DNA of 64,000 nt from Candidatus Proelusimicrobium volucris (GTDB lineage Bacteria; Elusimicrobiota; Elusimicrobia; Elusimicrobiales; Elusimicrobiaceae), in NCBI GenBank assembly GCA_944324665.1, contig CALUXD010000002.1, positions 62,001 to 126,000 on the forward strand, in the 5' to 3' direction. How positions within the stretch are numbered: the stretch's first letter is position 1; every line of letters starts with the position of its first letter. This document shows, piece by piece, positions 46,369 through 63,042 of this stretch. The position numbers and the translations under genes were made by a program. Under the pieces are notes generated by a model that saw nothing but the letters and a program-made list of their open reading frames with translations, did not search any database and was not told where the DNA came from.

Positions 46369-47364
46369 TTATGCAAATTGTGGCAGTAAATCATTCACAA
46401 TTTCTATGGATTTACGCAAATAAGTAGGGCTTAAATGCGCGTAGCGTTGGGTTAATTTTAAGTCGGAATGGCCCAAAATACGCTGTAAATCGGTAATAGA
46501 GCCGCCTTTCATCATAAAATGACTGGCAAAAGTGTGGCGCAGGTCGTGAAAGCGGATGTTTTGTATGCCCAGTTTTTTAAGCGTATGACGAAAGTCGTAC
46601 TCCACCATTTTTTCCGTCAGCGGGAATACTTTACCTGTTTTAAGCGGGTGCATACTCAGTAATACCTGACGTAAAGACGGCATAATGGGCACTTCCCGCT
46701 TATTGCCGGATTTGGAAATATAAATATGGATAATGTTATTCGTCCAATCAATGTCTTTCCAATCCAGGCGTAGAATTTCGCCCCGGCGCATACCCGTACA
46801 GATAGCAAAAGCTACCAAGTTACGGGAACGCTCTGGGATATGCAACAAAACTTCTTTAATCTCCTCTTGCGACAGGTAATTGGTGCGGGCAGGGTTTTCT
46901 TTTTGCTTTCCTACCCCTATACATGGATTTTCACCTTTATACAGTTTAAGTAAGATGACTTTATTAATAATAGCCCGCAGGACGCTAAAGTGCCTGTTAG
47001 CGGTGGACGGACTGGTTTCAGCCAGGCGTTGGTTATAAAATTCCTGTACATCGGCCGTAGTAATACTGGCTAGGGGCTTATTCCCAAAGTACTTTTTGAG
47101 AAATTCTATCGTATATTTCATCTTAAAAGCACTTTTTTTCTTACTCAGGTGAATGGCATAGTATTTATCCGCCGCTTCCCAAAAGGTAAGTTGTTGTTTC
47201 TTCCGGTCCGGGAAGAACTTCCTTTCGGCTATCTCGGACTTACGCTTGGCTAAGGTCTCTTTAGCCAGTGTTTTACTACCATAAATAGTTTCCCGGTGTC
47301 TCTTCTGGTATTCATCACGGTAGTCAATTGTAAAACTTTTATTTAAATTATCTTTTATTCCCAT
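46369..47364 (-). CDS. Tyrosine recombinase (phage-type integrase)
   Basis: The 331-residue protein has the layout of element integrases: a small N-terminal DNA-binding part (residues 10-55), a core-binding SAM-like domain (60-145) and the catalytic domain. The active site is complete: Arg193 in TGMRRGEI, a lysine in the KSGNKREVP turn, His273 and Arg276 in HDLRH, His299 in GHSDLK and the nucleophile Tyr308. It would integrate and excise the island at the tRNA-Arg site. The excisionase-like and replication genes lie upstream in the same direction. Confidence 0.93.
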   Translation of the reverse strand: MGIKDNLNKSFTIDYRDEYQKRHRETIYGSKTLAKETLAKRKSEIAERKFFPDRKKQQLTFWEAADKYYAIHLSKKKSAFKMKYTIEFLKKYFGNKPLASITTADVQEFYNQRLAETSPSTANRHFSVLRAIINKVILLKLYKGENPCIGVGKQKENPARTNYLSQEEIKEVLLHIPERSRNLVAFAICTGMRRGEILRLDWKDIDWTNNIIHIYISKSGNKREVPIMPSLRQVLLSMHPLKTGKVFPLTEKMVEYDFRHTLKKLGIQNIRFHDLRHTFASHFMMKGGSITDLQRILGHSDLKLTQRYAHLSPTYLRKSIEIVNDLLPQFA

Positions 47365-52102: not shown

Positions 52103-53212
52103 TTAACGCATCTGTTCATTAAGCCATAAACTACAGTTAAAGTGCTGCCATTGCAACAAAACTCTTGTTTTTGTGATAGGATCTAGAGTATATTGACCAC
52201 CTTTAGCATACAAAATGTTATACAAGCTCGGGCACTTTTCCAAACCACCTTTCAGTTTGCTCACTTCAACTTCTACTTTACGGAATTCCCCATCAATCCA
52301 CTGATTACAATCAAATTGATCCCAGTCTTTTATGATTTTGGCCTTAGTAATAGGGTCTAAGGTGTACTGTCCTCCCGTAACATAGAAAATGTCATACAAT
52401 TTAGGACAATATTTACGCGTATTAGCGGCGGCACGTTGTTGGCGCAGTTTTTCCTCTCTTTCTTTCCTTTGTTTTTCCTTACGTGCTTGTGCTTCTTCTT
52501 TTAACATTTTTGCAATTTCTTTTGTATCCACTTTGTATATTTTTTCAATCTTAACTTTATCGATCATCCTTGAATTTTCATCCACCAAAGAACATTGTTT
52601 AGAGTCGCAATTCAAGTTTATTTTGCTTGGGGTGAGTTTATAAGATACAGAGATCCCTCTAGTCGTATAAGGCTGAAAAGACACGGTAGCATTACTAAAT
52701 AAAGGAATAATTTTAGCCTGCCTTACACATACAAACAAATCAAAGGGAACAAATAATAGGGGGAAGAAGGCATAGATTGGGCTTCCTAATACATCGACAA
52801 CTGCCCCTGTACAACCTGTTCCTCGGGCATCTTTTTTGCTGTATTCTAAAACTATCTCCAAAGTTGTGGGGCGTAATTCACATGTAAGCCCTTCAGAAGG
52901 TTGCATAGTACATTGATTTTTCCATAATCGTCGATTATCTTGTAAAGATTCAGGTAATTTAGGAAGATCTTTTTTGTTATCGGAAAATTCCATAGGGATT
53001 CTCAACTGAGACTCAATAGACGAGTATTGGTAAGAACGAAATAACGAAAGCTCCGAGCGTTTTTTATCTCCTTCACGCTCTGTTATCCTGTGCTTTATGG
53101 TTTGAGTCTGGGCAGTAGATGTAGGTGGCTGGCTTATTGTATGTACTCGTCCCGTTGTACAAGCATTAAACAAAATAGAACACGCAATAAGTATAGATAA
53201 ATGCTTTTTCAT
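52103..53212 (-). CDS. Lipoprotein with two C-terminal tandem repeats, unknown
   Basis: The 369-residue product has a lipobox FNAC (Cys18), a Ser/Thr/Gln-rich linker and a beta-rich middle domain with several cysteines. A hydrophobic stretch (SPIYAFFPLLFVPFDLFV) is followed by a charged helix (KMLKEEAQARKEKQRKEREE) and two copies of a roughly 45-residue module. The first has CPKLYDIFYVTGGQYTLDPI with a final FDCNQWIDGE; the second has CPSLYNILYAKGGQYTLDPI with FNCSLWLNEQ. Each has two cysteines. I do not recognise the family. The gene begins 121 bases after the structured RNA candidate and may be controlled by it. Confidence 0.75.
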   Translation of the reverse strand: MKKHLSILIACSILFNACTTGRVHTISQPPTSTAQTQTIKHRITEREGDKKRSELSLFRSYQYSSIESQLRIPMEFSDNKKDLPKLPESLQDNRRLWKNQCTMQPSEGLTCELRPTTLEIVLEYSKKDARGTGCTGAVVDVLGSPIYAFFPLLFVPFDLFVCVRQAKIIPLFSNATVSFQPYTTRGISVSYKLTPSKINLNCDSKQCSLVDENSRMIDKVKIEKIYKVDTKEIAKMLKEEAQARKEKQRKEREEKLRQQRAAANTRKYCPKLYDIFYVTGGQYTLDPITKAKIIKDWDQFDCNQWIDGEFRKVEVEVSKLKGGLEKCPSLYNILYAKGGQYTLDPITKTRVLLQWQHFNCSLWLNEQMR

Positions 53213-53332
53213 ATTCTCTCCTGAGTTTATTTAATTGTTTGTTAGCAACTTTATGTCCAATAGAGTAACTAGTAAGTTGCTAGTGTTTATTTGTACATCC
53301 TAGAGTTCAGGTAAAATAAGAAAATAGGCAAG

Positions 53333-53512
53333 AAAAAAGCGACGATATTACCTGAGCTATTGCAGTAACCCGTGTAATAATCGCCGCCTACCTGCCTCAG
53401 TACAGAGGCAGGTATAAAAGCAGACGATTATTTGGTGGACTGCAATATGCCTTGTGGATAAACTATCCACCCAGCTTAGCGTAGGCTCTCCCTACGCTTC
53501 CAACAAATAATC
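53333..53512 (-). ncRNA. Structured RNA candidate with attenuator-like alternative stems
   Basis: Read on the minus strand, the order is segment A (53512-53504), hairpin 1 (53498-53478, 8 bp), hairpin 2 (53470-53454, 7 bp), segment B (53434-53425), hairpin 3 (53414-53389, 10 bp perfect), segment C (53387-53374), segment D (53351-53339) and six T (53338-53333). A pairs with B over 9 bases, enclosing hairpins 1 and 2. B also pairs with C over 8 bases. C pairs with D over 13 bases with one bulge and one G-U, forming a terminator before the T-run. A further 9-bp pairing joins 53439-53447 with 53358-53366. TATACT at 53537-53542 (minus strand) could be its -10 box. It could be an attenuator for the lipoprotein gene or a free small RNA. 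Confidence 0.65.
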
Positions 53513-53582
53513 TTTAGTTTAGTTAATATTTTTTAAAGTATAGTAAAAATTGTTATATGAATAAAGCTTACTATTTTAGAAA

Positions 53583-55682
53583 TTAAGCTTCTTCGTCCTC
53601 TTCTTCCTCGTCAGCATCTTCCTCTTCCGCTAAAATATTGATTGAAAAAGAATCTTGCTCTATCTGATAGGGCTCTAATAAGGCTTTAATGAACCTTAAA
53701 ATATCTCTAGAAGAAAGATTAATTTCTACAAAAATGCCTGGTTTAATTTCATAAGACTTAGTTAATTCTTGAGGATTAGTTGTTATATGCGGATGTCCTG
53801 TTCTAATACCTTTAAATTGAAATTTTTCTTGGGCCAACTGTTCCAAAGTTCCAGGTTTTTGCTCATCAAGTAGTTTGAGCATATCAAACAGCATTGAAAT
53901 ATATGTGTCTTGGGTATATCTTCTCCCTTGAAAATCAAACGAAACCAGTTTCTTACCCGTAATCTCATCTATTTGGGCTAGAGTAATAGAAGAAAGATAT
54001 TCAAATTCTATACCTGAATCTTGAACCTGTTGAATGGCAAAGTAATTGATTAATATTTCTGCTAGTCTTTTCCCGCGTGTATGAATAGCCTCTACATTCC
54101 AAACAGATTGATTGAGAACATCTTTATTCAAAATTACTGCCTTGGAATACTCCCGAATAATGTCCTTTTTTTCTTCGAAGCTTTTATTGGAAAGCTCCCC
54201 ATTATATCCCGTTACGGACAAATTCCCAAGAACATGCAAATTCGCTTCATGTTCTTCATTGGAAATATGTTTCCAGTCCGCATTAAGTTTTTGGGGCATA
54301 ATATGTTCCACCGTTAAATTATCTGCTGATAAAATTTCCTTTCCATGGCCATTTTCGATAGACATCAACAATAAGCGACAGAGAGGCAAATTCCGATAGA
54401 TATCAGCTATTTGCAACTGTTGGATAAATTCACTATCCGTAGGAATGCGATCCTTATTCGTGCGTGAAAATAAAAATTTATTAATAGAAGCATAATATTT
54501 AGCTTTATTTTCTTGTATTTTAAACACACGATGGTACAACGAAGTAAATAAGTTTCTTAAGGAGTTAGAAGGAACCCCGCACACCAGACGGCGGACTAAA
54601 TATGCGACAATAAGGCGAAGTGTTTCCAATAAAGTTTGCTCTGTTATTACGTGTTGTTCGAAATCATTAAAAACATGAAGCAAAAAAGGATAACAAGTAG
54701 TCTGTTTTAATAACCGCAAATTTTGCAGTTCTTTTTGAATAGGATCCGAATAGCGGGAATTATCATATATAAATGCCTGAAATATAGAAGCGTAATATTT
54801 TAATTCTTGCAAAATGGTATCAGGAGTAAAATTCCCTTCTTTATATAAATGCACAAAACTATCATATAAAAAACGTTTATCTACTTTTGATGCAGTTTTG
54901 TAGATAATATACTGCATAAAGAACAATTCTAGGTTTTTATAGTCCGTACCTGGTTTTAACATCTTTTCTAATGGAAGCCAATATGTTTCAAATAATTCTT
55001 CTTGGTTTTTTGCATCCATAAGTAAAAAGTTACGTATTAAATCGGCATTGGACAAGTCTAATCCCGTAGAATTAATACTTTCAAAAATAATTTGCGGGTC
55101 ATCTTCTCCCTTGGTTAGGGCAATCTCTACAACTTCCAACTTAGACAATGCTTCTAAAATCTGCTTAGGTTGAACCCCTTGCTTTACCCAACTTTCCATC
55201 CTTTCCTTGCAAACTTGGTAATTTTTGTAAATATGACTAGAACGATCCATTTCTTCTAGTTTGCCATTAAGAAGGAGTTGAAATTGCTTCTTATCTGTTT
55301 TGATAGGTTTTAATTTGATTTTTAGTTCTTCCACACTCTCTTGGTTGTGTATATATTCTGTATCAATGCGTTGAGCAGTGTCGGGGTCCTTTTCGCGGGA
55401 AATATTTTCCAATGCCTTCAGTAATAACATCATAGTAGTAAGACGCTGTTGTCCATCAATGATAATATGTTCCCGCAAAGAAAAGCTGCTCGCCTCCGCT
55501 AAATGTACAATAGCACCAAAAAAATGTTTTTCTCCTGTCTGTATAATCTGTTCAATATCCCACAGCAAGCGGTTACAATGTTTTTCCGCCCAATCATAAT
55601 TACGCTGATAAACAGGAATTTTAAACAATACTCTCTCTGCTTTAATAAAACTATCCAATAGCCATAATTCATGTGCTCTCAT
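53583..55682 (-). CDS. DUF262/DUF1524 (GmrSD-like) protein linked to a type I restriction operon
   Basis: The 699-residue protein has the DUF262 signature IPVYQRNYDW (22-31) and IDGQQRLTT (75-83), a ParB-like nucleotide-binding fold. In the middle lies the DUF1524 His-Me/HNH-type nuclease core VEHIMPQ (458-464), with GNLSVTGYNGELSNKSF (486-502). The fused GmrSD enzyme restricts glucosyl-hydroxymethylcytosine DNA and related proteins guard against phage. The last 15 residues are almost all Glu and Asp. The gene follows hsdM by 56 bases in the same direction, so it is probably part of the same defence operon. Confidence 0.87.
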   Translation of the reverse strand: MRAHELWLLDSFIKAERVLFKIPVYQRNYDWAEKHCNRLLWDIEQIIQTGEKHFFGAIVHLAEASSFSLREHIIIDGQQRLTTMMLLLKALENISREKDPDTAQRIDTEYIHNQESVEELKIKLKPIKTDKKQFQLLLNGKLEEMDRSSHIYKNYQVCKERMESWVKQGVQPKQILEALSKLEVVEIALTKGEDDPQIIFESINSTGLDLSNADLIRNFLLMDAKNQEELFETYWLPLEKMLKPGTDYKNLELFFMQYIIYKTASKVDKRFLYDSFVHLYKEGNFTPDTILQELKYYASIFQAFIYDNSRYSDPIQKELQNLRLLKQTTCYPFLLHVFNDFEQHVITEQTLLETLRLIVAYLVRRLVCGVPSNSLRNLFTSLYHRVFKIQENKAKYYASINKFLFSRTNKDRIPTDSEFIQQLQIADIYRNLPLCRLLLMSIENGHGKEILSADNLTVEHIMPQKLNADWKHISNEEHEANLHVLGNLSVTGYNGELSNKSFEEKKDIIREYSKAVILNKDVLNQSVWNVEAIHTRGKRLAEILINYFAIQQVQDSGIEFEYLSSITLAQIDEITGKKLVSFDFQGRRYTQDTYISMLFDMLKLLDEQKPGTLEQLAQEKFQFKGIRTGHPHITTNPQELTKSYEIKPGIFVEINLSSRDILRFIKALLEPYQIEQDSFSINILAEEEDADEEEEDEEA

Positions 55683-55738
55683 AAAAATACCTTTAACCTA
55701 CTTTGGTTATGTCTGAAGATATGTTTTTAACAACTTTT

Positions 55739-57529
55739 CTACGGGAGTTGCTTTAGCCCTAATTCCTTTAAGAATTCATTATGTTTTGTTTTGGCTTTAT
55801 TGATATCTTTGTCAATTTTTTCAAGTTCTTGCCATACTTCTTGAATATCAATAATTTCTTCTTCCGGGGCAGTGCTCACATAGCGCGAAATATTTAAGTT
55901 ATACCCGTTTTCCTCTATTTCTTTAACAGAAACCCGGCGGGAAAATTTTTTATCGTCCTCTTTACGGTATTGATAAGCATCTACAATCTTGTCAATATGT
56001 TCAGGTAAAAGGCTATTTTGGCGCTTGCCCTTTTCAAAGTATTCACTGGCATTAATAATTAATACATCGTCATATTTTTTACACTTTTTAAGCACCACAA
56101 TACACACCGGAATACCAGTGGAGAAAAATAAATTTTCCGGCAGGCCAATAATAGCGTCTATGTTATTGTCTTTGATAAGTTTTGTTCTAATCCTTTCTTC
56201 GCCTCCCCCACGGAATAATACACCATGGGGCAAAATAATAGCCATGGTACCATCATCACTTAAAAAATGAAATCCATGCAATAAAAATGCAAAATCCGCG
56301 GCAGATTTAGGAGCAAGACCATAGTTTTTAAATCTAAAATCTTCCGCCATATCTTCTTTCGGTTCCCAGCGGTAACTAAAAGGAGGGTTTGCCACCACTG
56401 CCTCAAACTGCATCTTTTTAGCGGGGTTCATTTCGTTTAGCAAACTCCAATCATTTAGCAAAGAATCCCCATGATAAATTTGGAATTCAGAATCTTTTAC
56501 CCCATGAAGCAACATATTCATACGGGCCAAGTTGTAAGTGGTGATATTTTTCTCCTGCCCGTATATTTGCCCAATAGCATTGGGCCCAAATTGCTTGCGT
56601 ACATTGATTAACAACGAGCCGGACCCGCAAGCAAAGTCCAATACATTTCGTAAATGACTCTTTTTACCTGTGCTAGGGTCTTGGCTATCTAGCGCAACAA
56701 TACGGGAAAGGATAGTGGATACCTGTTGCGGGGTATAAAATTCTCCCGCTTTTTTGCCAGATCCTGCCGCAAACTTGCTGATTAAATACTCATACGCATC
56801 CCCTAAAATGTCCGTATCATTGGGAAAGCTGGACAAGCCTTCTGCAATTTCTGTTATGATAGAACACAACAGGGCATTACGGGCGCTATAATTTTTACCA
56901 AGTTTGTCTGAATCCAAATTAATTTCCGAAAACAACCCCCGGAAACTGCTTTCAAAAGATTCATTTTCAATATATTTAAATCCGCTTTGTAAGGTTTTAA
57001 GCAATTGTTCATTCTGGGTGCGGGCTAGTTCGTAAATATTACTCCATAAATAAGCGGGTTTTATTACATAGTGGATTTTACGGCGCATTTGCTTTTCCAG
57101 CGTTTCCACTTGATCCAAATTATGGATATACCACACCGCCAACGCAATTACATTGCGGCTATAGAGCATTTTATTGTTATTTTCTATAAAAATACTTCTG
57201 GCCTTGGTGAGGGCTTCGTCTGTGGCTTCATTGTCATTTAAGCCCAATTTAGCGGGGGAAAGGGTCTTGCTGTAGGTTTCAATACGCTCCTTTAAGCCCG
57301 TAATATAGGCATCTAACCCTTGGCTATTGGCCTGTATTTCCTGCTCACACTGGGCATAATCTGGCCCCAGTTCTTTTTTTACTGCATCTTCATAATTATC
57401 AGAAAGATACCGTAAAAAGAGGAAAGATAACATATAGTCTCTAAAATCATCTGCGCTCATTGCCCCGCGTAATTTATCGGCTATGGCCCATAAAGTGGCA
57501 CCTAATTGTTTTTGTTGATTTTCGGTCAT
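55739..57529 (-). CDS. hsdM: Type I restriction-modification methyltransferase subunit
   Basis: HsdM methylates adenine at sites chosen by HsdS. The 596-residue protein has the N-terminal helical HsdM_N domain (residues 8-170, with LGATLWAIADKLRGAMSADD), SAM motif I DFACGSGSLL (298-307) and the catalytic NPPF (381-384) of N6-adenine enzymes. The GEFYTPQQV segment (262-270) is typical for type I. A C-terminal coiled coil for HsdS contact ends the chain. Its start overlaps prrC by four bases (ATGA). Length exceeds the common 480-530 because of an insert at residues 60-230. Confidence 0.95.
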   Translation of the reverse strand: MTENQQKQLGATLWAIADKLRGAMSADDFRDYMLSFLFLRYLSDNYEDAVKKELGPDYAQCEQEIQANSQGLDAYITGLKERIETYSKTLSPAKLGLNDNEATDEALTKARSIFIENNNKMLYSRNVIALAVWYIHNLDQVETLEKQMRRKIHYVIKPAYLWSNIYELARTQNEQLLKTLQSGFKYIENESFESSFRGLFSEINLDSDKLGKNYSARNALLCSIITEIAEGLSSFPNDTDILGDAYEYLISKFAAGSGKKAGEFYTPQQVSTILSRIVALDSQDPSTGKKSHLRNVLDFACGSGSLLINVRKQFGPNAIGQIYGQEKNITTYNLARMNMLLHGVKDSEFQIYHGDSLLNDWSLLNEMNPAKKMQFEAVVANPPFSYRWEPKEDMAEDFRFKNYGLAPKSAADFAFLLHGFHFLSDDGTMAIILPHGVLFRGGGEERIRTKLIKDNNIDAIIGLPENLFFSTGIPVCIVVLKKCKKYDDVLIINASEYFEKGKRQNSLLPEHIDKIVDAYQYRKEDDKKFSRRVSVKEIEENGYNLNISRYVSTAPEEEIIDIQEVWQELEKIDKDINKAKTKHNEFLKELGLKQLP

Positions 57530-58860
57530 TGCGCGTCTCCTTGTGAAGCTTCTGGTTCAAATAGTTTTGGGTTAAAAGGGTATTGTGTTAATAAGCCTTC
57601 TACTATTTCTCTAAAATATTTTTTGTTATCTTCAACCATTTCTTGAGGCTCAAAAATCGAGTAATTTCCATGGCTTAAAAGGTTGATAACTCTACTATAA
57701 ACAGCTTCGTCCTCTGGAAAAATTTTCTTAACACAGCTTGAAAAATTTTCATACCCCAAAAAAGAGGCTGTTTTCTCTAAAATATTTCTAAGAATATTAA
57801 AATGATATGTATAGGGCGTGCCAGAATCGGCTATGTCTTTCATTTCTTTTAGCAAGGCCACATGATGAAAAAAAGGGGTTTTAGCTGTGCCTTTTAAGAG
57901 ATATCGTTCTGTTTGAGGTGTCTTATGTAAAAACAGCTGAACCGACTTCTTGATTGTATTACACAATATATTAAAAAATAATGGGTGGTGAGTGGAAACA
58001 ACAACTTTTTTTGAGCTTTGTTTTAATAACTCGGCCAAATCTGTAGCTACGGCAATCACATTATTGTCATCTAGTGAAGAAATTGGGTCATCTATATAGA
58101 TGTATTTAACCCAGTCATATCCAGCATCCTGGTCAATAGCCATTTGTATAATTGCCAAAAAACAACTCCAAATAAAAATCCGCTCTTCCCCGCGGGATAT
58201 TTTAATATTATCCACTCTTTTCAAGTTGCCATCAATCATTACATCTCTATGAAATTTAATCTCCCCATGCTGAACTGTAAAATTAAAATCAGCATATCGA
58301 TGTAAGAAAGGGGTTACTTTTTCTTCTATCGCCATTGCATTTAACCCAGCAATAAAGCGAGAGGCCGTATTCATTTTTAAGGAGCGGGTAGTGTCGTGTG
58401 GCAGGTCATTATCCCAAGTAAACAGGTCCTCTGTAAATGCATTATAATACAAAGTATCGGCTGATTTTTCACCAGTGCTTTCATTTAACACCTGACCGAT
58501 CTTTTTAAACGCTCCAGACAAGCGTGTTTTACCAGTTCCATTGTAAGCGAACAAAACAATAAATTTAGAATCTTCTAAATATAGCCGCAAATAGTGGGCA
58601 ATATCCTCTATACTATTAAATACTTCTTTTTTCTCCAAACATCTAAAGAGATAATCTAATTTCCGCTTGGTTTCTTGATTGAGCCCATGTTGTAAGTGAT
58701 AGTCTTGCTCTCCACGTGCTTTTTTATAATTTGCGCTAAACAAAGCTTTATATTCCTTCACTCTGGAGGGCTCTTTGATTTGCACGCCTAAGCTGACTAA
58801 TTTATTCATCCATTTTTTATATGTTTGCGTAGCAAGTTTTCGGGGTATATTAACACTCAT
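57526..58860 (-). CDS. prrC: PrrC-like anticodon nuclease inside the hsd locus
   Basis: PrrC is a latent nuclease that cuts tRNA (tRNA-Lys in E. coli) in the anticodon loop when a phage inhibits the attached type I restriction enzyme. The 444-residue protein has an ABC-type ATPase half: Walker A AYNGTGKT (105-112), then the PrrC-specific LYYNAFTEDLFTWDNDL, the signature-like SRGEE (222-226), Walker B YIYIDDP (253-259) with SSLDDNN, and the switch THHPLFFN. The C-terminal half has RNILEKTASFLGY with Arg358 and Glu362 and His397 in LLSHGN, matching the known PrrC triad in order and spacing. Compared with E. coli PrrC the N-terminus is about 65 residues longer. It overlaps hsdS and hsdM by one and four bases. 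Confidence 0.9.
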   Translation of the reverse strand: MSVNIPRKLATQTYKKWMNKLVSLGVQIKEPSRVKEYKALFSANYKKARGEQDYHLQHGLNQETKRKLDYLFRCLEKKEVFNSIEDIAHYLRLYLEDSKFIVLFAYNGTGKTRLSGAFKKIGQVLNESTGEKSADTLYYNAFTEDLFTWDNDLPHDTTRSLKMNTASRFIAGLNAMAIEEKVTPFLHRYADFNFTVQHGEIKFHRDVMIDGNLKRVDNIKISRGEERIFIWSCFLAIIQMAIDQDAGYDWVKYIYIDDPISSLDDNNVIAVATDLAELLKQSSKKVVVSTHHPLFFNILCNTIKKSVQLFLHKTPQTERYLLKGTAKTPFFHHVALLKEMKDIADSGTPYTYHFNILRNILEKTASFLGYENFSSCVKKIFPEDEAVYSRVINLLSHGNYSIFEPQEMVEDNKKYFREIVEGLLTQYPFNPKLFEPEASQGDAQ

Positions 58861-60050
58861 TATTTAATATCCTCCAATGTAGGGAACAGGCCTTGCATAA
58901 GGGCTTTTTTGTGCATTTTTAAGGTTTCTAGTTTATGAGTCTGAACCTGGATAAGCTGATCCGCAGTGGAGAGGCACTCGGCTATTTTCTCTTGTTCTTG
59001 TTTGTTATCAGTTATCCAGATATGCAATTTTGAAAAATCTGTTTTGTTAATAATAGGAACCGTTGTGGTTTCCAAACTAGCTTTTATCAAAGGGGTTCTT
59101 TGTAATAATGAATAATAAAGGAACTCGCTCTCATAATAAGAATACGGGATAATAGAATTAATTTGTTGGTTTGTAATACAAGGATGTACAGATAGGGCCA
59201 TCTTACCGATAGAGGCAATACATGTAAACATTATTGTGTTTTTTGGTAAAATTCTCATTTTGGAAGTTTTTACCACAGACCTTTGAGTATTGTATTGATA
59301 CTTGTTTTCCTTGATGTCAGTTGGCGTTACAAATTGGATACTTCCATTCCATAATGAGGCATTTGTAGTCGAAGGAGTTTTACCAGTAACAATCGTTCCT
59401 ACTTCTCCAATTCCCGTCATTCTCCACGAGTTATCATTTTTAAATTGGGCAAAGCGCCAGGAGGGCATGGTTTTACCCCGGGCTGGGAATAGGTTTTGCA
59501 TAAGGGCTTGCTTATGTTTTTTTAGAGCATCTAATTTTTTATTTTCCGCGCTAATTAACTCATCCAACGAAGCTAAACAATCTGCTATTTTTTGTTGTTC
59601 CAGAAGAGTCTTTGGAATCAAAACCAAAAAATTTTGATATGTTGAAATATAATATCTTTTATGTTCTTTTGCTTCAAATTTAATGGTATTTATTAATTCA
59701 AAAATAAATTTAAGATTGTTCTCTCCTTTAGGTTTTAAAATCTTAATAGCTGAAGATTTAACTTTAAAGGCAAAGTCGACATATTTTTTTTCAGTTGTAA
59801 AATCATCAAAAATTATTACTGGAAATTCTGTATAAATATTATCTTGTTCATTAGTATATCCAAGCACAAAACTTTTATTTGCAGTTAGTACAGGGACACC
59901 ATTCTGTTGGTATTGTTCACTGCTAACAATATAATTTTCAGGGCGTTCATAATCCAATAGATTCCTTAACTCTGTAACTATCCAGTCAGAGGTAAATTCG
60001 GGAAATCTCAACTTAGGCGTTAGGCTCTTTTTATTATGATTCATAGGCAT
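58860..60050 (-). CDS. hsdS: Type I restriction specificity subunit
   Basis: HsdS gives the DNA sequence specificity of the complex. The 396-residue protein has two target recognition domains, beginning LRFPEFTSDW (about residue 14) and MPSWRFAQFK (about residue 200). Two conserved helical spacers follow them: QQKIADCLASLDELISAENK with LDALKKHKQALMQNLFP, and QEKIAECLSTADQLIQVQTH with LETLKMHKKALMQGLFP. The near-identity of the spacers reflects the usual internal duplication. No second hsdS or invertase gene is visible, so phase-variable shuffling is not indicated. The start overlaps the hsdR end by 17 bases. Confidence 0.93.
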   Translation of the reverse strand: MPMNHNKKSLTPKLRFPEFTSDWIVTELRNLLDYERPENYIVSSEQYQQNGVPVLTANKSFVLGYTNEQDNIYTEFPVIIFDDFTTEKKYVDFAFKVKSSAIKILKPKGENNLKFIFELINTIKFEAKEHKRYYISTYQNFLVLIPKTLLEQQKIADCLASLDELISAENKKLDALKKHKQALMQNLFPARGKTMPSWRFAQFKNDNSWRMTGIGEVGTIVTGKTPSTTNASLWNGSIQFVTPTDIKENKYQYNTQRSVVKTSKMRILPKNTIMFTCIASIGKMALSVHPCITNQQINSIIPYSYYESEFLYYSLLQRTPLIKASLETTTVPIINKTDFSKLHIWITDNKQEQEKIAECLSTADQLIQVQTHKLETLKMHKKALMQGLFPTLEDIK

Positions 60051-63042
60051 TTAATCCAATAATTTTATGGCCGTTGGCCAGTTTCTTAAGCAGGGGGATA
60101 AGGTCCGCCATGAAGGCCAGTTCTTTTTGGGTTCTTTCCCGCCAGGGCAGGCCCAGCGGGGCAAATAAATCACTCAGTTTTTCCCCGTCAAACACCATAC
60201 GGGCAAGGATTTCTTGAATAAATGTATGTAACGGCTGGGCTTCCAGGCCGTGCTTTTGGGCTAGGGCATTAATGGCTTGGTTGTCTTTTTGGGCCCTAAA
60301 TTGCTGATAGCCCTTTTTTATTTCTTCTTCCGCTAACGGTACACCTACCTGCAAAGAATTAATGTATTCCACAATATATTCCCGTTCGTCCAGCATGTTA
60401 GACGTGGAAGAAAGAAGCGCAATGAGTTGCTCTTTTTGCATTTTTTGCTTTTGGGGTTCCTCGTGCGTATATTTGGAAATAAGAGACATAATGTAGTCAT
60501 AATCTATAATGGCAGAGGAAAAAAGGACCAACTCAAAATCCACACTTTGCAAGGCCTGGCTGGATTCTTCTGGCGTTTGGGGTTGGTTCTCCTTTAAACG
60601 TTGGGCCACGTCTATATAAGCACCACGGAAAGCACGCAAGGTGTCTACCGGTAATAAAGAGTCTATTTTTTGGCTTGTTTCGGCGTCTATTTCTGTATAT
60701 TGGTCCAAACGGGTTTTTAAGCGCTGTACTTCTTTAAATTTATTAATAAATTCACAGCGGGCGGCGTCCCCTTTCAAATTATTTACTTCTTCAGGTTTGC
60801 ATGCCAAACCATGGGATTGCATAAATTTTTCCAACTCGGCAACGGCGTTGGCCAGTTTTTCCAGTACCTGGGAGGCAGGCTCCACCAACCAAATTTCTTT
60901 GGCGCGGGAGGAGTTCTTTTCCCCTGAAAAGAGGGCAATGGCGGCATCCACTTCCGCAGATTGGTTGCGAAAATCCAAAATATTCCCATAGGGTTTGGTA
61001 TCGTTTAAAACCCGGTTGGTACGGGAAAAGGCTTGAATTAAACCGTGGTATTTTAAGTTTTTATCTACATATAAAGTATTTAAATATTTAGAGTCAAACC
61101 CCGTAAGCAACATATCTACCACGATGGTAATGTCAATTTTATTCTTATGCGGATAGTCGGTGTTGGGGTATTTTTGGTCTTTAATCCTTTTTTGAACATC
61201 CTGATAATAGGCGTCAAAATTAGTAATATCCTGGTTGGTACTATATTGGAGATTATAGTCTGCTATGATTTCTTTTAAGGCCAGTTTCTTTTTATCTGGG
61301 TCTTTTTTATTGTCTTCTTTTTCCTGGGGAAGGTCTTCCTGGATTTGTTGCACGTCTTTATTCCCTTCCGCCGGAGGAGAGAACACACAAGCAATATGTA
61401 AAGGCGCGTATTCCCCGTGCGTTGCCTGGGAGAGACGGGATTGCTCCTCCTTGAACAGATGGTAATATTCAATAGCGTCATTAATAGACGCAGTAGCTAA
61501 AAGGGCGTTGTATCTTCTGTTATTGGTTAAGATATCATGCTTAGATAAAATAGCCTTAATAACGGCTTGTTTTTGCGCCTTACTGCTAACATTGGAAATA
61601 GAAACATCGTTTTGAGGCTTAAAATAATCAATATGAAAGCGCAATACGTTTCTATCATCAATAGCGTTGGTGATAGTATAGGCGTGGAGCTCCTTTTCAA
61701 ATACATCTTTGGTGGTGGCGTAAGAGCCCTCGGTTCCTTCTATTTGTTTGGAAACAGCATTTTCTTCAAAAATAGGCGTGCCTGTAAAACCGAATAGTTG
61801 CGCCTTGGGGAAGAATTTTTTTATTGCTTGGTGATTATCCCCAAATTGGGAGCGGTGACATTCGTCAAAAATGATGGCCAGGCGACTATCCCGCAAAGGG
61901 GCCAGGCGTTCTTTATAGGTTAGTTCCCCTTTCTTTCTTTTCTCTTTATTCTTTTTGCTGTCATCATCCAGAGCTAAACCTAACTTTTGAATGGTGGTTA
62001 CAATCACTTTATCCCGATAATCGGTTGAGGTTAAGCGTTGCACCAGGCTTTCTGTGTTCGTGTTTTCTTCTACACAGCCCTCTTGAAATTTATTGAATTC
62101 CTCTCTAGTTTGGCGGTCCAGGTCTTTTCTGTCTACCACAAACAGGCATTTGGCTATATTGCGGTTATCTTTCAACAACGTGGAGGCTTTAAAAGAAGTA
62201 AGGGTTTTACCACTGCCCGTGGTATGCCAAATGTATCCGTTCCCACGGTTTTGCTCTATACAGTCCATAATGGCTTTAACCGCATAAATTTGATAGGGGC
62301 GCATAATCATCATTTTTTGTTCACTAACGACCAGAACCATATATTTACTAATCAATTCCCCTAAAGTGCATTTACGTAAAAGCGTATCGGCAAATTCGTA
62401 CAAATGGGTAATTTTTTTATTATCTTTATCCGCCAACTGATATACGGGCAAAAATTGTTCGTCCGCATTAAAAGCAAAGTGAGTTTTGTTATTATTGGCA
62501 AAATAATAGGTATTACTTTCATTGCTTACAATGAAAAGTTGCATAAAACAAAGCAGAGTATTTGTAAAACCGTTGCCAGGGTCGTTTTTATATTCAACAA
62601 TCTGTTCAATAGCCCTTCTGGGCGTAATTTGGAGAGATTTTAACTCCACCTGAGCCACGGGAATGCCATTAATAAGAATAATTACGTCGTATCTATGATA
62701 ACTATTTTCCGTATTGATACGAAGTTGATTGATTACTTCATATTCATTTTTGCACCAATCCACAGTATTAACTAAAGTGTATTGAAGGGGAGTGTCATCA
62801 TCTCTTTTAAAAGTGTTTGTTTCACGTAAACGTTTGGCAGCAAGGAATACATCCGGGGTAATAATGCTTTCTTTTAATCTTGTAAATTCAGAATCGCTTA
62901 ATTTTACCCTGTTTAATTCTTCGAAATGCTTTCTAAAATTTTCTTCTAAAGAAGCCCGATCCTTGATATCTTCCCGATAGGTGTATTTTAATTCTTGAAG
63001 TTTTTTAATAAAATCGGTTTCAATTTGGCTCTCATTCTTCAT
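60034..63042 (-). CDS. hsdR: Type I restriction endonuclease subunit
   Basis: HsdR is the motor and nuclease that translocates and cleaves unmodified DNA. The 1002-residue protein has a PD-(D/E)xK nuclease domain (Asp119 in RYDVIILINGIP, Glu133-x-Lys135 in QVELKS) and the QxxxY-type helix after it. A superfamily 2 helicase motor follows, with Walker A HTTGSGKT (273-280) and DECHRSQ (393-399). A second RecA domain has VVDMLLTGFDSKYLNTLYVD and QAFSRTNRVL. All catalytic motifs are intact. It is the first gene of the operon on the minus strand, with a 400-base divergent intergenic region upstream. Confidence 0.95.
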   Translation of the reverse strand: MKNESQIETDFIKKLQELKYTYREDIKDRASLEENFRKHFEELNRVKLSDSEFTRLKESIITPDVFLAAKRLRETNTFKRDDDTPLQYTLVNTVDWCKNEYEVINQLRINTENSYHRYDVIILINGIPVAQVELKSLQITPRRAIEQIVEYKNDPGNGFTNTLLCFMQLFIVSNESNTYYFANNNKTHFAFNADEQFLPVYQLADKDNKKITHLYEFADTLLRKCTLGELISKYMVLVVSEQKMMIMRPYQIYAVKAIMDCIEQNRGNGYIWHTTGSGKTLTSFKASTLLKDNRNIAKCLFVVDRKDLDRQTREEFNKFQEGCVEENTNTESLVQRLTSTDYRDKVIVTTIQKLGLALDDDSKKNKEKRKKGELTYKERLAPLRDSRLAIIFDECHRSQFGDNHQAIKKFFPKAQLFGFTGTPIFEENAVSKQIEGTEGSYATTKDVFEKELHAYTITNAIDDRNVLRFHIDYFKPQNDVSISNVSSKAQKQAVIKAILSKHDILTNNRRYNALLATASINDAIEYYHLFKEEQSRLSQATHGEYAPLHIACVFSPPAEGNKDVQQIQEDLPQEKEDNKKDPDKKKLALKEIIADYNLQYSTNQDITNFDAYYQDVQKRIKDQKYPNTDYPHKNKIDITIVVDMLLTGFDSKYLNTLYVDKNLKYHGLIQAFSRTNRVLNDTKPYGNILDFRNQSAEVDAAIALFSGEKNSSRAKEIWLVEPASQVLEKLANAVAELEKFMQSHGLACKPEEVNNLKGDAARCEFINKFKEVQRLKTRLDQYTEIDAETSQKIDSLLPVDTLRAFRGAYIDVAQRLKENQPQTPEESSQALQSVDFELVLFSSAIIDYDYIMSLISKYTHEEPQKQKMQKEQLIALLSSTSNMLDEREYIVEYINSLQVGVPLAEEEIKKGYQQFRAQKDNQAINALAQKHGLEAQPLHTFIQEILARMVFDGEKLSDLFAPLGLPWRERTQKELAFMADLIPLLKKLANGHKIIGLNAYES

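Follow-up and report, generated by a model that had tools for sequence, protein, structure and literature searches.

Results

The window analyzed here is a 64,000-nucleotide (nt) stretch of the genome of Candidatus Proelusimicrobium volucris (GenBank assembly GCA_944324665.1, contig CALUXD010000002.1, positions 62,001 to 126,000). On its minus strand, positions 53333 to 53512 hold a 180-nt structured leader RNA that lies between a restriction operon and a putative lipoprotein gene. A reading of the sequence alone (the sequence-only reading) had proposed at this place a structured RNA, lacking annotation, whose mutually exclusive stems end in a terminator, and our analysis confirmed this. The folding energy of the RNA is -82.6 kcal/mol, whereas shuffled sequences average -47.7 kcal/mol (z = -7.93); none of 200 dinucleotide shuffles folded as well, and Rfam 15 gave no match at cutoff. 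Covariance model R1, which has the window sequence among its own training sequences, scored it at 178 bits (4.8e-43).

All parts of the RNA lie on the minus strand. Segment A (GATTATTTGTTGG; 53500 to 53512) is the 5' strand of stem P1 and pairs with 53426 to 53438 of segment B (CCACCAAATAATCGTC; 53423 to 53438). Between them lie two 7-bp hairpins, P2 (GCGTAGG-GAGAG-CCTACGC; 53479 to 53497) and P3 (GC..GTGGATA-GTT-TATCCAC..GC; 53449 to 53475), and segment J (TATTGCAGT; 53439 to 53447). The 9-bp hairpin P4 (53390 to 53413) separates B from segment C (GCGGCGATTATTAC; 53374 to 53387), which can pair with B as an antiterminator or with segment D (53339 to 53351), the 3' strand of a terminator stem followed by the T-run TTTTTT (53333 to 53338). 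Segment L (ACTGCAATA; 53358 to 53366), flanked by conserved GGGTTA and GCTC, is the partner of J. The pairings that the sequence-only reading had described, A:B plus C:D or else B:C, were all located in the window, and its three local hairpins and 9-bp long-range pairing correspond to P2, P3, P4, and J:L. The C:D stem escaped a generic terminator scan, its loop being too long for the scan pattern. A candidate -10 box, TATACT (53537 to 53542), lies 24 nt upstream of segment A.

We examined the conservation of these helices in an alignment of 15 homologues that were found by DNA similarity and aligned without structure. A:B, P2, P3, P4, C:D, and J:L together had 89% of their cells paired, with 112 double changes versus 40 in shuffles, and the structure when slid along the alignment paired at most 49%. 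Across the covariation tests of the helices, on this alignment and the larger one below, none of 500 control shuffles did as well on the main measures. Pairing was 98.2% for A:B, 91.2% for C:D, and 95.6% for P2, and B:C was also kept. Compensatory changes were present in 5 of 6 pairs of P2, all 5 outer pairs of P3, and 7 of 9 pairs of P4. We then used a 101-sequence alignment made from matches to R1, a model built without B:C and J:L. The two helices missing from the model were paired in 91.5% (B:C) and 91.4% (J:L) of cells, compared to at most 57% when slid, and all nine J:L pairs showed compensatory changes. The A:B and C:D figures are those of the 15-homologue alignment, because counts from the 101 sequences would lean on the model.

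Segment B changes mostly from A to G, so that pairing with both A and C is retained through wobble, as would be expected when one strand has two partners. The T-run is conserved in the homologues. The family has two subtypes: type A, which includes the window RNA, has a single hairpin separating B from C, and type B has two. In type B, segments A, B, C, and D are jointly altered (CTGTTTTTGG, CCAAAAACAGTCGT, ACGGCTGTT, and AACAGCCGT), and A:B, B:C, and C:D therefore all survive. These results show that a terminator and a mutually exclusive antiterminator are both conserved, with covariation in A:B, C:D, B:C, and J:L. The proposed RNA would have been in doubt had homologues lost A:B, B:C, and C:D; instead, the homologue search and the compensatory changes uphold every stem, including B:C and J:L, which were in none of the models.

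Variability is highest in J and L, at 1.50 bits per column against 0.43 for GGGTTA and 0.49 for GCTC next to L, and 63 distinct J segments occur among 90 sequences. Each J nevertheless matches its own L, at 8.29 of 9 positions versus 4.75 of 9 when paired crosswise. An exact search of the weakest 20 matches in one genome, G072, found a J:L-like complement of 9 to 13 nt in all 20, each one different, with the complement at one locus (L200) perhaps being a B:C match instead. Two orthologous leaders, L016:6406-6583 and L017:6934-7111, differ in that the L of L016 no longer fits its J and resembles the L of another leader. The sequences suggest either that leaders have recombined or that the assembly is chimeric; the relatives are mostly metagenome-assembled genomes (MAGs), in which paralogous leaders may be misassembled, and L016 is perhaps one such case. 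At L063:2508-2929, a tandem pair of leader RNAs, both with weak J:L, lies ahead of one gene.

The R1 search found copies in at least 60 of 90 genomes of the same bacterial family. Across the phylum, 107 of 341 genomes matched (model E values are rough), with strong matches in a second family, f21, which is probably Endomicrobia. In the genome collection, searched with a narrow pattern, every match that bears a name is an uncultured Elusimicrobium, Elusimicrobiaceae, or Elusimicrobiales MAG, and several come from the rumen. Sequence identity between copies is low. By sequence, the window genome has one close copy and relatives hold diverged ones; models find five copies in the window genome, which has 18 pilin open reading frames (ORFs). 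The models found about 127 copies in G072, model R2 found 38 in another genome, G014, and genome G018 has one copy, at 1543535 to 1543705. Pilin genes themselves are extremely expanded in these genomes, with at least 150 N_methyl ORFs scored in G072 (1.7 Mb) and 108 pilin ORFs in G014 (1.4 Mb).

By curated cutoffs, the RNA belongs to none of the known Rfam families (GEMM, T-box, and others). The subthreshold Rfam matches were at chance level; HSUR and Bacteroid-trp reached 23 and 22 bits against cutoffs of 50 and 49, a likeness not beyond chance. Plasmid and phage collections gave only chance-level blastn matches, a pattern search of IMG/VR gave no match, and a literature search found no paper on such an RNA in Elusimicrobiota. 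This leader family of Elusimicrobiota is apparently new and undescribed.

The copies lie mostly 20 to 120 nt upstream of a gene, very often one that is type IV pilin-like, and 57 of 104 matches (a set in which a few loci are counted twice) precede an ORF with a prepilin motif. In G072, 52 of the 127 RNAs have a listed pilin gene downstream on the same strand, 51 of these at 31 to 69 nt, whereas the controls, a listed pilin upstream or on the opposite strand, gave 0 and 0. Conversely, 52 of the 74 listed pilin genes in that genome carry a leader copy, and even among its weakest 20 matches 18 precede a pilin. In G014, 14 of 38 copies precede a pilin, versus 0 and 0 in the controls. Other targets are LicD enzymes, glycosyltransferases (GT8 and GT61), zinc-ribbon proteins, outer membrane protein barrels, lipoproteins, an HSDR_N protein, and EcoRI-type DNA methylases. 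Four of the five copies in the window genome were placed, none before a pilin; they precede the lipoprotein gene in the window and genes for a GT8 enzyme (L066), a zinc-ribbon protein (L085), and an HSDR_N protein (L092).

Extended -10 boxes, TG[TC]TA[TC]AAT, occur upstream of the RNA, in the zone that corresponds to the TATACT box, in 36 of 118 relatives' sequences versus 0.6 expected. The distance from the T-run to the pilin start codon is mostly 20 to 60 nt, an interval into which a promoter would hardly fit, and many copies have a start codon with a ribosome-binding site at 22 to 50 nt. The upstream promoter boxes and the closely spaced start codons indicate that the RNA is transcribed as the leader of the gene. 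It thus occupies the position of an attenuator, between a promoter, here recognized by consensus only, and a gene on the same strand.

The two alternative states are nearly equal in energy, with a median difference of 2.2 kcal/mol over 94 RNAs. When the same 94 RNAs were folded as growing chains, A:B formed in all 94 at the first stage, B:C in 81 and J:L in 88 at the middle stage, and A:B in 66 and C:D in 65 at the last. Shuffling J in silico moved the full-length folds to the terminator, with C:D rising from 0.69 to 0.96 and most of the antiterminator lost. Within the limits of such modeling, these results support a J:L-locked antiterminator in an attenuator.

In the window, the presumed target is the putative lipoprotein gene (52103 to 53212, minus strand), an ORF of 369 amino acids with the ribosome-binding site GGAG and a product that matched no Pfam family. 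Its distance from the T-run, 120 nt, is longer than usual. This spacer (53213 to 53332), which runs from the RNA to the lipoprotein start, folds no better than shuffles (z = -1.1) and contains a 9-bp inverted repeat, TAGCAACTT...AAGTTGCTA. By extension from the family, the window RNA may control the lipoprotein gene, although such control is less certain here than for the copies that precede pilins. On the other side, positions 53583 to 63042 hold a type I restriction operon (hsdR, hsdS, AAA_13, and hsdM) that ends in a GmrSD-type gene, and a phage-type integrase lies at 46369 to 47364. The defence operon is incidental to the RNA: the upstream genes differ between loci, the candidate -10 box TATACT lies beyond the GmrSD-type gene, and a pilin-like gene downstream is the usual target. 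The idea that the RNA is linked to the defence genes or to infection is therefore not supported. The riboswitch- or attenuator-like layout suggested with it stands, given the conserved exclusive stems and the terminator.

Discussion

We consider it likely that the window RNA belongs to an Elusimicrobiota family of cis-acting transcription attenuators, riboswitch-like 5' leaders. From the computed family, pairings, covariation, position before genes, and near-equal energies, we infer an order of folding in vivo, termination, a factor, and control of the gene. RNA polymerase would start upstream of A, and A:B would form first. As C and L emerge, B would leave A for C and J would take L, giving a long antiterminator hairpin that J:L, different in nearly every copy, would hold. 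D would then compete for C. If D wins, A:B and C:D form and transcription would stop at the T-run; if D loses, the polymerase would read on into the gene. The choice is probably biased by a factor (a metabolite, second messenger, or protein) through the conserved GGAAG, GGGUUA, and GCUC motifs. The genes so controlled would be mostly pilin-like genes, along with other surface genes and, in the window, the lipoprotein gene.

Several observations weigh against this proposal. The targets are diverse (pilins, GT8/GT61, LicD, DNA methylases, and HSDR_N), and no single ligand is therefore indicated. The 120-nt spacer in the window makes a separate promoter for the lipoprotein gene possible. In the L016 copy, J:L is broken and the pilin gene is intact. 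The energy models ignore pseudoknots, proteins, and polymerase speed. Finally, J:L could be a pseudoknot inside the terminator state; pair counts fit both arrangements, and the alternative is a serious one because the models ignore pseudoknots.

In this last variant of the attenuator, the terminator loop would dock into the P1 junction to make a compact ligand-binding fold, and a ligand would stabilize termination. J:L is compatible with A:B plus C:D, where L forms the apical loop of C:D and the P1 junction contains J, and the conserved GGGTTA and GCTC flank L. Yet J:L fits the nested antiterminator equally well, and its loss in silico favors the terminator rather than weakening it (in a model that ignores pseudoknots). 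We regard the pseudoknot as possible; being a form of the attenuator, it shares part of the likelihood that we give to the latter.

A free small RNA (sRNA) acting in trans, which the sequence-only reading had left as an option, would explain the RNA's own promoter box and full intrinsic terminator, as well as the window gene that starts 120 nt past the T-run, if its place before pilins arose by joint duplication of a cassette. We think this unlikely because many copies have a start codon and ribosome-binding site 22 to 50 nt past the T-run, a gap too short to hold a separate promoter. The relation to genes is also strictly directional across unrelated gene families, and an sRNA would not need the conserved B:C alternative.

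It is similarly improbable that a ribosome on a minimal upstream ORF selects the stems, as in a trp-leader-like, translation-coupled attenuator. Many copies do have a GGAG box about 40 to 55 nt upstream of A, followed in about half of 19 f21 leaders by an AUG-stop (ATGTAA or ATGTGA). However, the AUG-stop is regular only in f21 and not in the main family, many leaders begin too late to include it (with promoters 20 to 35 nt before A), and across A there is no conserved reading frame. A leader peptide across A was rejected for this last reason, its frame not being conserved among the sequences. At the f21 loci L174, L175, L177, L178, L179, L180, L184, and L187, a GGAG or similar purine box lies upstream of the RNA, and a minimal AUG-stop (ATGTAA or ATGTGA) follows it by 10 to 12 nt, at the foot of a small hairpin.

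A DNA-level element by which pilin cassettes spread, such as a MITE or recombination site, would suit the very high copy number and the hypervariable yet self-complementary parts, but it is very improbable given the conserved T-run, the fixed orientation and distance to start codons, the upstream promoter, the conserved B:C alternative, and the low identity between copies. An attC-like site was rejected by reasoning only: the conserved GGGTTA box lacks the GTTRRRY core, and the elements do not form arrays.

The attenuator that we favor resembles trp-type, four-segment attenuators in opposing a 1:2 plus 3:4 terminator to a 2:3 antiterminator and in placing an intrinsic terminator ahead of the gene. 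It differs from them in that the main family has no conserved leader peptide that could choose the stem, has the additional J:L helix with a different sequence in nearly every copy, and targets surface genes rather than a single biosynthetic pathway. A GEMM-I riboswitch (cyclic di-GMP [c-di-GMP] and cGAMP) with a terminator platform precedes pilA in Geobacter, and GEMM riboswitches occur in roughly 30 copies per genome. GEMM-I shares with the leaders described here the position before pilin and surface genes, the terminator switch, and several copies per genome. Unlike GEMM-I, the present leaders have no Rfam match and no evident separable aptamer, and their copy number per genome is far higher. 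Of 90 genomes, 89 contain GGDEF proteins, which occur nearly everywhere and so are uninformative on c-di-GMP as the signal; c-di-GMP is possible as a ligand but not indicated.

More speculatively, J:L may be a private code for each leader, by which dozens of similar coexisting leaders each fold only with themselves. Together they would be bistable switches, each independent of the rest, for a giant pilin repertoire (about 125 leaders in a 1.7-Mb genome). We consider this idea rather doubtful at present. If true, such private switches would let pilin variants be expressed separately, or to the exclusion of one another, through control at the RNA level, and a self-coded J:L helix would be a clean, testable design for running many parallel switches in one cell. 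The finding adds an apparently undescribed leader RNA family, present at a copy number far above that of GEMM riboswitches, across a phylum with few cultured members and ties the unexplained pilin expansion of these gut bacteria to a dedicated, likely attenuator-type, RNA switch.
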